Shown here in pieces: positions 4,918 to 8,390 of a DNA stretch of 12,025 nt. Position 1 is the first letter of the stretch; every line of letters starts with the position of its first letter. Source of the stretch: an uncultured Planctomycetaceae bacterium (GTDB lineage: Bacteria > Planctomycetota > Planctomycetia > Pirellulales > Lacipirellulaceae); contig CALMBE010000203.1 of NCBI GenBank assembly GCA_937860165.1, positions 1 to 12,025 of the forward strand. The letters run 5' to 3'. The translations under genes were made by a program, and so were the position numbers. The notes under the pieces were generated by a model. The model was not told the DNA's origin and searched no databases. It saw only the letters and a list, made by a program, of their open reading frames with translations.

Positions 4918-6555
4918 TCAAACTACCCAAGTGAGCTCGAGGCCGGATTGCCGCTGCCAGATAAGGTAGTCTACGCCATCGACATCGCCGTCCCCATCGG
5001 CATCGCCCGCGCTATCATCTTCATAACCTGCTTGCCAGATAGCCAGATCGAGACCATTGACCAATCCATCGCCATTAAAATCCGCCGACACGAGTTGGGT
5101 AAAGTCGCGTAAGAAATTCGCGTACACGAAATAATCCTCGCCGTAATCGACTTCTCCGCTGCCGTCCATATCCCCCTGCGTAAACACTGCGTTCAGCGGG
5201 GGATCGCCATAATAGTTGGTGTACCAAATCGTGTAATCGAAGGTATTTACCAGGTTGTTCAGATCGGCGTCGCCCGGCAACATGGAAAATACGAAATTGA
5301 AATTGCCACCGGCTAGGCCATTGCCGGAGGGAAAGTCGCTCACCAGGGTATTGTTCGTCGCAAGGCGGAACGGATTGGTCCACTCGCCGTCGAGTCGGTT
5401 GAATGCCTCATCGGTCACCAGGTCCGAGAGCGAAAGCACGTATTGGTTGGCCGCAAAGGGTGTGTTGAATCTCCAGGTAGCCTGGTGGGTAACGGGACTA
5501 TAGGAAAAGCCATCCGTCCCCGTCACCAGCGCTGGCACTGCGCCCGACCTCAGCCCACGAAGAACCAAGTGGCTCGCCTGGAGATTGGATACATGCTCGC
5601 TGAACTGGATCGTCACGGTGTCCGCATTGCCCACCGGCACCGTGCGGAGCTGGATTCCCGAACCGTCGAAATCGTTGATGTCGTCTAGCGGATTGTTGAA
5701 CGAATGAGGCGTATGGGTGGAAGTTGAACCGCTGATCGTGACGTTGGCGATTTGAGGAGGGAGTATCGAATCAATCCAATCCGCCTTCTTGGACACACGA
5801 ACATCCGTTCCAATTCCCCCGTAGACCAGCAGATAGGGGACGGCGGCCCCCGTGACGGCGATTCCGGCAATACGTCCGTTGAGAAACACCGGCGAGCCCG
5901 AATCACGCGAGGCGCTCAATACTTCAGCGTTTCCTTCACCAGCATCTCCAAACGTGTTGATGCCATTGCCGTCAAAGTCATAGCGAAGTCGAAATTCGTC
6001 AAACGAATTGTCGTATCGGTTGACTCCAAATCGCTTTTTGGTAGGAAGAAATATATTTGGATCGACAAAGCCCTGGCCAGCGACTCCATATCCGACCCGC
6101 ACGCCGACTTGACCAAACTCGTCGAACTCACGATAGATGTCGTAACGAGGTATCGAGTCATCCACCTCAAATGCGAGCTCGAGTATTGCCAGGTCGTCAG
6201 TGGGATGCCGAGTTGTTGCAGCCACGGGAATGAATTGGTCAGAACTGTCAGGTACGTTATCGCCGTTGAGATCGACCTCGATACGGAGTGACCGGCCATT
6301 CGCAACTTCGAGTTCGGATGGAATATTGTGTCTGGCGGTCAGGACATGGCGGCCCGTTGACAGCAAGACCCCGCTCACGTGGGTTGGCACGTTTCCTAGT
6401 TCGGGCATTGGCACGCCGTCTTGAACGTATCGCACGAGCACCACCCCGCCAAAGCCTTGTTCTGCGGTCACCTCGTGATTTGTGGGCGAGTCGACGCTCA
6501 CGCTGAGCATGAATCGGGACTCCAGAGTTTCATATCGAAGTTTTCTTCCACGCAT
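4918..6555 (-). CDS. Secreted trypsin-like serine protease with dockerin-like C-terminal repeats
   Basis: From the ATG at 6555 this is 545 residues. I prefer that start to the GTG at 6582 because AGGAGA lies nine bases before it and MRGRKLRYETLESRFMLS is the typical planctomycete 'LEPR-x-LLS' N-terminus of secreted proteins. A trypsin-like domain spans about residues 30-265, with catalytic-triad candidates His76 (LTARHN), Asp121 (DDLAIL) and Ser219 (SRDSGSP in place of GDSGGP). A beta-rich segment follows at about 270-410, containing DTVTIQFSEHV. The C-terminus carries four calcium-loop, dockerin type I-like repeats: GDADLNNLVNTFDY near 428, GDMDGSGEVDYGEDY near 461, ADFNGDGLVNGLDL near 491 and GDADGDGDVDGVDY near 517. 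It follows the PEP-CTERM gene directly, suggesting joint expression and a role at the cell surface. The substrate is unknown. Confidence 0.83.
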   Translation of the reverse strand: MRGRKLRYETLESRFMLSVSVDSPTNHEVTAEQGFGGVVLVRYVQDGVPMPELGNVPTHVSGVLLSTGRHVLTARHNIPSELEVANGRSLRIEVDLNGDNVPDSSDQFIPVAATTRHPTDDLAILELAFEVDDSIPRYDIYREFDEFGQVGVRVGYGVAGQGFVDPNIFLPTKKRFGVNRYDNSFDEFRLRYDFDGNGINTFGDAGEGNAEVLSASRDSGSPVFLNGRIAGIAVTGAAVPYLLVYGGIGTDVRVSKKADWIDSILPPQIANVTISGSTSTHTPHSFNNPLDDINDFDGSGIQLRTVPVGNADTVTIQFSEHVSNLQASHLVLRGLRSGAVPALVTGTDGFSYSPVTHQATWRFNTPFAANQYVLSLSDLVTDEAFNRLDGEWTNPFRLATNNTLVSDFPSGNGLAGGNFNFVFSMLPGDADLNNLVNTFDYTIWYTNYYGDPPLNAVFTQGDMDGSGEVDYGEDYFVYANFLRDFTQLVSADFNGDGLVNGLDLAIWQAGYEDDSAGDADGDGDVDGVDYLIWQRQSGLELTWVV

Positions 6556-6578
6556 CGCTCTGGGTCTCCTAGAGTCGT

Positions 6579-7400
6579 TCACATTGCCGGGTGCGCCACC
6601 GCGCCGCGCCGAGAGATAAAGTAAAAAGTTGCCGCTGTGGCCAGCGCCGCCAGGACGAAACTGGTTGGTTCCGGTACGGCTGGATAGCCGATCTGGAGAT
6701 GATCTAATTCAAAGTAATCAATCCCCTCAAGACTAAAGATAAAGGTTTCGATTCTTAAGGACCTGAGACCGGCGCTGCTTCTCACCCCGAAGAACCGATC
6801 CTCAGAAGTCTCGCCCGTGAAAGTGGAGTCACCTAAAAAGGGGGAGTTTCCGCCAATGAATATAGCACTCGCATTGACTTCAAGACTGAGATGCGAAAGC
6901 CATGTGAATGGCCGGCCGTCGGTCCACACGAATCCGAACGCCGCCGGATAATTGCCGTGGCTGTCAGGCAGAAAGGCAAAAAAAATCGCGGGACCTACCG
7001 GGCCCAAAATCGATGTGTCAAAGTAGTTTGAACGCAGAGAATGCCCCGCGTTTCCCGAACCGTCAATCGAACCATCGTCGCCGTCGACGGAGTCGGTCTC
7101 CACCCCTGGGCCGACGACAATCCCAATCCCGTCACCGGGGGGAGGAAAGACAGGGAATGGAGGCGGTGGAATCGGAATATTCACGATCCCCGGCACGTTG
7201 AGCAGACCATCTTCAAAGTCTTCGATCTGGGTGACCAGCGAAGGGTCGCCTAGAAACGGGCTGTCGGCCGCGCTGAGATAGGGGAACGGACCGACGGCAG
7301 TCACCGCGGCGCGTACCACGACGGCCTGGGCGGTCACAAGTAGCAACACGACAATTGAGGGCAGCAGGGAAGTAGAGAATAGCGACAGGGAGAGCTTCAT
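6579..7400 (-). CDS. PEP-CTERM sorting domain protein
   Basis: This 273-residue exported protein starts at an ATG preceded by a good Shine-Dalgarno site, GAGGTG four bases upstream. Residues 1-31 form a signal peptide with a long hydrophobic stretch. The C-terminus holds the PEP-CTERM signal: VPEPTSF at 242-248, a hydrophobic helix, then the basic ISRRG at 262-266, with an unusual seven-residue tail beyond it. In known systems this signal is recognised by an exosortase that places the protein at the envelope, often with exopolysaccharide. The mature part has a proline-rich run at about 75-88 and no domain I recognise. Its stop codon overlaps a possible GTG start of the protease gene. The promoter contains a 14-base C tract that may make expression variable. 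Confidence 0.88.
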   Translation of the reverse strand: MKLSLSLFSTSLLPSIVVLLLVTAQAVVVRAAVTAVGPFPYLSAADSPFLGDPSLVTQIEDFEDGLLNVPGIVNIPIPPPPFPVFPPPGDGIGIVVGPGVETDSVDGDDGSIDGSGNAGHSLRSNYFDTSILGPVGPAIFFAFLPDSHGNYPAAFGFVWTDGRPFTWLSHLSLEVNASAIFIGGNSPFLGDSTFTGETSEDRFFGVRSSAGLRSLRIETFIFSLEGIDYFELDHLQIGYPAVPEPTSFVLAALATAATFYFISRRGAVAHPAM

Positions 7401-7432
7401 AATTCACCTCACTTTTGCTTACGGTATGGCAG

Positions 7433-7461
7433 TTTAGAGGGGGGGGGGGGGGACTTGTCAA
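7433..7461 (-). promoter_or_regulatory. Promoter with a 14-base C tract as its spacer (candidate phase-variable)
   Basis: On the minus strand the order is TTGACA (plus 7456-7461), AGT, fourteen C (plus 7439-7452) and TCTAAA (plus 7433-7438). The -35 box is a perfect consensus match, the -10 matches at four of six bases, and the spacer is exactly 17 bp. The -10 ends 32 bases before the ATG of the PEP-CTERM gene, giving a short leader that includes its Shine-Dalgarno site. Homopolymers inside promoter spacers are known to cause phase variation, as in the Bordetella fim genes and Neisseria porA. That behaviour here is inference. Confidence 0.65.
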
Positions 7462-7474
7462 TACTGATTCCAAC

Positions 7475-7489
7475 ATTTTCCCAGAAAAT
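7475..7489. promoter_or_regulatory. Palindrome ATTTTC-N3-GAAAAT upstream of the C-tract promoter
   Basis: A perfect 6-bp inverted repeat with a 3-base centre lies 14 bp upstream of the -35 box. Its size and place suit a binding site for a dimeric regulator, and the A/T-rich arms could instead serve as an UP element. There is no direct evidence of a partner protein. Confidence 0.3.
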
Positions 7490-7525: not shown

Positions 7526-7562
7526 GTAGGCCGGAACAAGGTACCCCGCAGTTCCGGCCTAC
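7526..7562 (+). repeat. REP-like palindromic element, copy 3 (perfect 12-bp arms)
   Basis: The arms GTAGGCCGGAAC at 7526-7537 and GTTCCGGCCTAC at 7551-7562 are exact reverse complements around a 13-base loop containing GGTACC. The first 33 bases are identical to copy 2. It lies between the UVR-motif gene and the promoter of the PEP-CTERM gene, so it may insulate the two. Confidence 0.82.
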
Positions 7563-7581
7563 ACTTCTACTGTTAGAGCAA

Positions 7582-7669
7582 AGAGTCGAGAGCGGAGAGT
7601 CAAGAGCCAGAGGTGATTTCTGGCTCTCGACCCTCGACGCTCCGCTCTAATCCTTCAACTCTCGACTCT
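7582..7669. repeat. Nested inverted repeat overlapping the 3' end of the UVR-motif gene
   Basis: Three arm pairs nest around a 7-base loop: AGAGTCGAGAG at 7582-7592 with CTCTCGACTCT at 7659-7669, AGAGCGGAG at 7589-7597 with CTCCGCTCT at 7640-7648, and AGAGCCAGA at 7603-7611 with TCTGGCTCT at 7619-7627. The right side contains the stop codon (7647-7649) and the last codons of the UVR-motif gene. It could serve as the transcript end. The sequence is built from near-repeats of GAGAGTC. Confidence 0.7.
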
Positions 7670-8390
7670 CCATACGGTCGCGGAGCTCGGCTGCTAGTTC
7701 GTAGCGTTCGGCAGCGATGGCCTGCACAAGTTGCTCGGCCAAGGTGGGGCCGAGTTGGTAGAGTTGCGAGATCGATTTCTTCATCTCGCGAAGCTTTTCG
7801 ACGAACGTGTCTGTCTCGAATTGCTCCAGGGCAGAATTCGCGCGGAAAAACGCACGCAACTCTTTGAGTCCCTTGTCAACGAACTCGAGTGCCGCTCGGG
7901 GGTTGGACTTTTCCAATTCTCCCAAAGCGAGGGCCTGAATTCGATGGAACATCACAAACGGGCGGTACTGTTCGTGCAGGATCGTCCATTGCGGATCGGG
8001 CGAATTCGCGGCACAGAAATCCATCAAGGAGAGCGAATGCTCGGCATCGAGAATCACTTCCGGATAACGACTGAGCGTCAGCCAGCAGACCCGACGGTGA
8101 TAGTATTGGTAAAACTCGCGATCGATCTGGGCACACCGCTCGAAATCGAGTTGAAACGCCGGGCCTTCGGCAAACGAGAGCGATAACACGTAATCGTAAT
8201 AGGTCGCAAAGCCTTCGGGCTTGGCACCATCGGGGCGACCTTGCACTTCCATTTGCAGGATTCCCAGTTCCACGCGCATCTGTAGGAGGGGACGACCATC
8301 ACCTCCCTTGACTTCGCGGACCATGACTTGGCCAGGGACAAACGGCCAATCGGGCAAGAGATGATCGAGATGGATTGCGCGTTTGGCCAT
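7647..8390 (-). CDS. UvrB/UvrC (UVR) motif-containing protein
   Basis: From the ATG at 8390 this is a 247-residue cytoplasmic protein. The frame stays open to a TTG at 8441, but MAKRAIHLDHLLPDWPF is a more natural start. The main body, residues 1-210, is not a nuclease or helicase and I do not assign it a fold; it includes the segment KPEGFATYYDYVLSL and an aromatic patch EFYQYYHRR. The C-terminus has a UVR motif, LAEQLVQAIAAERYELAAEL at about 217-236, the short helical hairpin by which UvrC and UvrB contact each other and which also occurs in McsA and Clp ATPases. Similar proteins are common in Planctomycetes. The last residues, ESRELKD, are encoded by a repeat element. The motif suggests a protein-protein contact role; nothing ties this gene specifically to DNA repair. 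Confidence 0.72.
   Translation of the reverse strand: MAKRAIHLDHLLPDWPFVPGQVMVREVKGGDGRPLLQMRVELGILQMEVQGRPDGAKPEGFATYYDYVLSLSFAEGPAFQLDFERCAQIDREFYQYYHRRVCWLTLSRYPEVILDAEHSLSLMDFCAANSPDPQWTILHEQYRPFVMFHRIQALALGELEKSNPRAALEFVDKGLKELRAFFRANSALEQFETDTFVEKLREMKKSISQLYQLGPTLAEQLVQAIAAERYELAAELRDRMESRELKD

Follow-up and report, generated by a model that had tools for sequence, protein, structure and literature searches.

A poly-C tract in the Bordetella fim promoters, which drive surface-protein genes, determines how far away an activator site lies. In Neisseria, porA, fetA and opc carry a homopolymer between the -10 and -35 boxes that is thought to alter sigma-factor binding, as set out in the part of PMC2791445 that deals with these genes, and the reference list of that article titles an opc paper on a poly-cytidine-containing promoter. 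For PEP-CTERM genes, the passages of PMC1569441 on upstream regions describe a shared upstream element, a sigma-54 site, that controls many of these genes in Proteobacteria, together with many PEP-CTERM genes, in and outside Proteobacteria, whose upstream regions are of another class. Mononucleotide phase variation has been suggested for Akkermansia muciniphila, where the tracts reported in the relevant part of PMC3048395 lie within genes, including two capsule-synthesis genes, and in gut bacteria a PEP-CTERM gene near invertons has been proposed to be switchable in its expression (PMC11892184, passage on that gene). Nothing on point was found in the open-access literature for planctomycete, PEP-CTERM or exosortase phase variation, which agrees with the statement of the initial annotation that no such case had been described in Planctomycetes.

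The window is the whole stretch of 12,025 nt that was analysed, from an uncultured Planctomycetaceae bacterium whose draft genome (G000) comprises 3.77 Mb in 828 contigs. On the minus strand, a perfect TTGACA is followed by AGT, fourteen C and TCTAAA with exactly 17 bp between the hexamers, and the tract is upstream of a PEP-CTERM gene with a Shine-Dalgarno site before its ATG (7400-7398); on both points the sequence confirmed what had been annotated initially (Table 1). We consider it likely, with a probability of roughly 0.7, that the tract is a slippage-variable promoter spacer that switches a surface operon for PEP-CTERM and LEPR-XLL proteins. The homopolymer lies between the -35 box and a -10 box whose exact identity is predicted, and in a sigma-70-type promoter it would act as a spacer of variable length. 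Slippage of the strands during replication would add or remove C residues, which would alter how far apart TTGACA and a TANNNT -10 box lie and their helical phase, and the altered spacing would turn transcription of the operon up or down in a heritable and reversible manner. The same design is present before several other surface-protein genes of the family, which would form a small stochastic set of approximately 1-5 genes per carrying genome. Slippage as the cause, its reversibility and the effect on expression are what we infer from the sequences compared below.

Table 1. Features of the proposed switch and operon in the window, with the basis of each assignment
Feature	Position	Strand	Basis
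PEP-CTERM secreted protein, 273 aa, first gene of proposed operon	6579..7400	-	Pfam, homologues
LEPR-XLL (Planc_extracel) secreted protein, 554 aa	4918..6582	-	Pfam 21.6 bits, cut-off 25.5
-35 box TTGACA, 6/6	7456..7461	-	sequence; AGTATTGAC at the same place in the G022 homologue
C14 homopolymer, promoter spacer, proposed slippage switch	7439..7452	-	sequence and family census
TCTAAA, -10 box of the initial annotation, 17-bp spacer	7433..7438	-	sequence
TAAACT, better -10 candidate, type TANNNT, 19-bp spacer	7431..7436	-	sequence and spacing preference
Shine-Dalgarno GAGGTGA	7404..7410	-	sequence
Perfect inverted repeat ATTTTC-CCA-GAAAAT directly upstream of the -35 box	7475..7489	.	read by eye

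The C10 pattern matched the window five times, all in overlapping positions within the C14 tract, compared with a mean of 0.04 after shuffling. C14 was the longest of the 11 runs of at least 10 C or G in G000. With independent bases, and with C and G each set to p = 0.262 according to the G+C content of the relative G005, approximately 8.6 runs of at least 10 and 0.04 runs of at least 14 are expected. Runs of about 10 are ordinary in G000, being near the chance number, and the run of 14 is not. A C12 tract elsewhere in G000 abuts the ATG of a gene identified by eye as amine-oxidase-like (L010, 1501-1512, contig C400), and is a possible second slippage site. The inverted repeat upstream of the -35 box is a possible operator. 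A perfect 12-bp inverted repeat (7526-7562) and nested imperfect ones (7573-7671) are located between the end of the adjoining UVR-motif gene and the promoter.

The 273-aa product has the signal peptide, PEP, hydrophobic stretch and basic tail of a PEP-CTERM protein (peptide and tail by eye). Its match to the Pfam PEP-CTERM model (PF07589) of 19.7 bits is just below the cut-off of 20.7, and no NCBIfam match was found. When the PEP-CTERM domain was defined in 2006, PF07589 caught 22% of the matches (PMC1569441, passage on that model). The 554-aa protein also has a dockerin and a very weak trypsin-like match, and its gene overlaps that of the 273-aa protein by 4 nt. The PEP-CTERM and LEPR-XLL signals make both products candidate surface proteins. 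Exosortase (PF09721) was detected in G000 with an E value of 4.4e-57 and was above the cut-off in all eight genomes checked.

The nearest named relative identified through the adjoining UVR-motif gene is Bythopirellula polymerisocia (67%), which makes a Pirellulales planctomycete close to that genus the very probable host. In B. polymerisocia and three planctomycete contigs (L117-L120), the UVR-motif gene is followed by a convergent gene of approximately 700-750 codons, with a small gene between the two in one of these four. These syntenic stretches, the three contigs being from MAGs, had no C run of at least 8, and no PEP-CTERM/LEPR-XLL pair was evident among their ORFs of at least 130 codons. 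The operon at 4918-7400 looks inserted, or the region looks rearranged.

The design recurs in the family and is linked to one class of genes. A search for TTGAC followed by C8 in 43 family genomes gave 58 sites vs. 20 for the reversed pattern, and the TTGAC sites with runs of at least 9 were mostly 23-48 nt upstream of the Shine-Dalgarno site and ATG of a secreted gene. A census was then made by run and not by promoter, in which 147 places with C11 or more in the family yielded 148 distinct runs. TTGACA, matched at five or all six positions within 4 nt 5' of the run, was found on the C side of 16 of the 148 runs and on the G side of two (Fisher p approximately 0.0009); for a perfect TTGACA beside runs of at least 11, the numbers were 11 and 0 (Fisher p approximately 0.0008). 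At thirteen of the 16 census promoters the next gene region encodes a PEP-CTERM motif, including L056, by eye, and L031, where the motif is in a frame other than that of the start; the region had none at L058, which has a short first ORF only, or at L064 and L073, both C11 sites without a PEP-CTERM gene. The motif was present downstream of 15 of 22 sites with runs of at least 9 vs. none of 37 sites with exactly C8 (p 4e-9), although L165 (TTTACA) joined the 22 after being seen (14 of 21 without it) and the sites are not independent because paralogues share ancestry.

Nineteen tract promoters, namely the 22 sites minus four without a PEP-CTERM gene (L050, L064, L076, and L085) plus L256 (C7), were compared further. 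Pfam was scanned for all 19 first genes and NCBIfam for nine. An HMM match naming PEP-CTERM was obtained for eight of the 19 (the window's, L040, L045, L057, L059, L067, L079, and L080), with only L079 and L080 above the Pfam cut-off; genes without an HMM match rest on the motif search, which missed L056 (IPEPRTAT, found by eye). The L066b protein has a long tail beyond the motif and the L256 ORF lacks a PEP end. An ORF with a LEPR-XLL motif lay downstream of the first gene at nine of the 19 promoters (window, L040, L045, L057, both at L066, L075, L079, and L165), compared with none of 19 PEP-CTERM ORFs in 400 kb of G005, a control from one genome with a single LEPR-like match in that stretch and no such partner seen at its own tract gene. 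Carrying genomes had 1-5 tract promoters each vs. at least 29-146 PF07589 matches, so the genes behind tract promoters are a special subset. Secreted proteins with an FGE-sulfatase domain were found behind the tracts at L045, L056, L079, and L256. The mutS gene was found in all eight genomes checked, which speaks against loss of mismatch repair and leads one to expect lower slippage.

The variation in tract length seen here is one between gene copies whose flanks are identical or similar. G022 contains one promoter twice, with C9 and C14, before different PEP-CTERM genes. Upstream, the two copies agree over 29 nt and first differ at the 30th nt before TTGACA; downstream, 47 nt beyond the tract are identical, and the copies first diverge within the PEP-CTERM genes. 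A pair in G001 with C13 and C14 is 93% alike over 76 nt. Tract promoters of G010 that are related in the -10 region have C7, C9, C11, C12, and C20, the C20 copy (L165) having TTTACA and being close to a contig end. The single 6.5-Mb contig of G005 has a tract of C13.

The initial annotation had taken TCTAAA as the -10 box and its 17-bp spacing as the 'on' state. In TCTAAA, position 2 is not A and position 6 is not T. These two bases matter most in a sigma-70 -10 box, and the promoter scan requires both, so the window site could not be listed under its rule. TAAACT, which has the TANNNT form typical of the genus, starts 2 bp beyond the start of TCTAAA and recurs behind the G005 tract (L056). 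Spacings of TTGACA-TANAAT, counted in three genomes of the genus, peaked at 16, 17, and 18 bp, with 12, 8, and 8 of 59 rows (28 of 59 at 16-18 bp within a gap range of 11-23; p 3e-5); these rows exclude three C-tract rows of G001 and are not independent, as at least one promoter is present in more than one of the three genomes. The strict TTGACA-TANAAT count over the three whole genomes was 62 vs. 33 in the reversed control. A first spacing search, which used loose boxes in a 400-kb stretch of G005 and also looked upstream of start codons, gave no peak. The apparent preference for 16-18 bp, on which promoter activity is predicted here, is one of genome counts. Given this peak and TAAACT at 19 bp, C14 is predicted to be weak or off and C11-C13 to be on, and, as assembled, the promoter in the window is probably off or only weakly active. 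What had been proposed as a C-tract switch is thus upheld in the recurrent, gene-class-linked design and in the lengths that differ behind identical or similar flanks, but C14 at 17 bp as the 'on' state is unsupported.

A TANNNT hexamer followed the tract in 18 of the 19 tract promoters, and the tandem TANNNTANNNT followed tracts at 11 sites in five of the 43 family genomes, compared with none in the reversed control. TANNNT was at 16-18 bp in only two of the 19, and the first TANNNT was at 14-16 or 19-20 bp in 15. The rarity of TANNNT at 16-18 bp fits switches that are mostly off and also fits a wrong choice of the -10 box; at a given moment most tract promoters may be switched off, or, where the spacer is a C tract, another -10 box may be the effective one or its optimum may be shifted. 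It is conceivable, though doubtful, that the family has a stochastic surface-protein set in which tandem -10 boxes 5 bp apart behind one C tract create two 'on' windows with a dead zone between them, so that a growing tract would take each promoter through on, off and on again, and that promoter cassettes are shared between different PEP-CTERM/LEPR-XLL operons.

Could the tract be a fixed regulatory element, whether a G-quadruplex or a binding site for some regulator or alternative sigma factor, and not a length switch? C on the coding strand beside TTGACA before one gene class would fit a co-regulated set, and the two spacing ranges that hold 15 of the 19 first TANNNT hexamers are narrower than free drift might give. 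However, C9 and C14 between identical flanks and C7 to C20 within one genome are unlike a protein-binding site, and the folding tool, whose model does not include quadruplexes, detected no stable hairpin at the C tract. We regard a fixed element as improbable.

It is likewise unlikely that the tracts are neutral, with weak promoters of dispensable surface genes tolerating tracts that grew by chance and vary without function. The near-chance number of runs of about 10 in G000 and the mere 1-5 tract promoters per carrying genome are compatible with neutrality. So are the homologues of the first gene: seven of the eight others read (of nine, all but L029) had no C run of at least 8 upstream, among them the best by E-value (G031, 42%). 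Against neutrality stand the specificity for side, hexamer and gene class and a tract in the matching position upstream of a homologue in a different genus: the G022 protein (44%), second by E-value outside G000, is preceded by AGTATTGAC-TG-C13 where the window has AGTATTGAC-AAGT-C14. A same-genus homologue that lacks a tract (L023 in G009) has, by eye, TTGACG-N16-TAGAAT, which we count in favour of the switch.

A sequencing or assembly artefact, from poly-G reads or a mis-sized homopolymer, is very improbable, for although G000 is fragmented, 32 of the 148 runs (the C20 copy L165 among them) are within 150 nt of a stretch end and six runs of 31-92 C, each at most 110 nt from a stretch end, look artefactual, the window tract is internal to a 12-kb contig and belongs to a coherent promoter and gene, and the same design is present in the single-contig genome G005. 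The exact count of 14 C could be off by one or two. The C31-C92 runs at L187, L148, L113, L101, and L169 are probably poly-G read artefacts and inflate the run counts.

Beyond the family, TTGACA followed after 0-3 nt by C10 was found at 16 sites in 12 of 396 genomes of the order, 11 of them in seven family genomes; the order-wide reversed control gave two sites, both in G317, which also has one of the 16. No PEP-CTERM gene was evident by eye at the five sites of the order outside the family. A phylum sample of 294 genomes had eight sites besides that of the window, in seven genomes, vs. one control site. Homologous secreted proteins of one distant genus (L264 and L265, in G565 and G397) are behind TTGACA-C10 and TTGACA-C11, each followed by TACATT, and paralogous secreted proteins of G414 (L262 and L269) are behind TTGACA-C17, whose tract touches the ATG, and TTGACA-C11. 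The homologues in the distant genus and the G414 paralogues suggest that the design may have more than one origin.

As in Bordetella fim, the proposed promoter in the window contains a C tract and precedes a gene for a candidate surface protein; in fim the tract controls the spacing to an activator site, whereas no activator is known for the planctomycete tract promoters. The likeness to Neisseria meningitidis opc, porA, and fetA, as the part of PMC2791445 on these genes presents them, would be an unstable homopolymer between the boxes of a surface-protein gene promoter. The planctomycete promoters differ in host phylum, in the PEP-CTERM/LEPR-XLL operons behind them, in the perfect TTGACA at 11 of 16 census sites and in their often tandem TANNNT -10 boxes 5 bp apart. 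The Proteobacterial PrsK/PrsR case, as far as the passages on it extend, also has one shared upstream element across many PEP-CTERM genes, and it uses a sigma-54 site and a response regulator in contrast to a sigma-70-like promoter and a C tract. Akkermansia muciniphila is a PVC relative with PEP-CTERM proteins and a suggested mononucleotide phase variation; its tracts are intragenic, and no PEP-CTERM promoter tracts are described in the relevant part of PMC3048395. The inverton case in gut bacteria, in the passage that treats it, depends on DNA inversion, whereas slippage is proposed here. The best reading of the sequences is that the tract promoters would work like the opc and porA switches, in a new group and a new gene class.

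To our knowledge, phase variation by spacer tracts is known mainly from host-associated bacteria. If our reading is true, the recurrence of such tracts before one class of planctomycete genes would suggest that stochastic switching of the cell surface has other ends in this group, such as phage evasion or attachment in biofilms or to particles. It would also answer, for part of the non-Proteobacterial PEP-CTERM genes, the question of upstream control left open in the passages of PMC1569441 on upstream regions.
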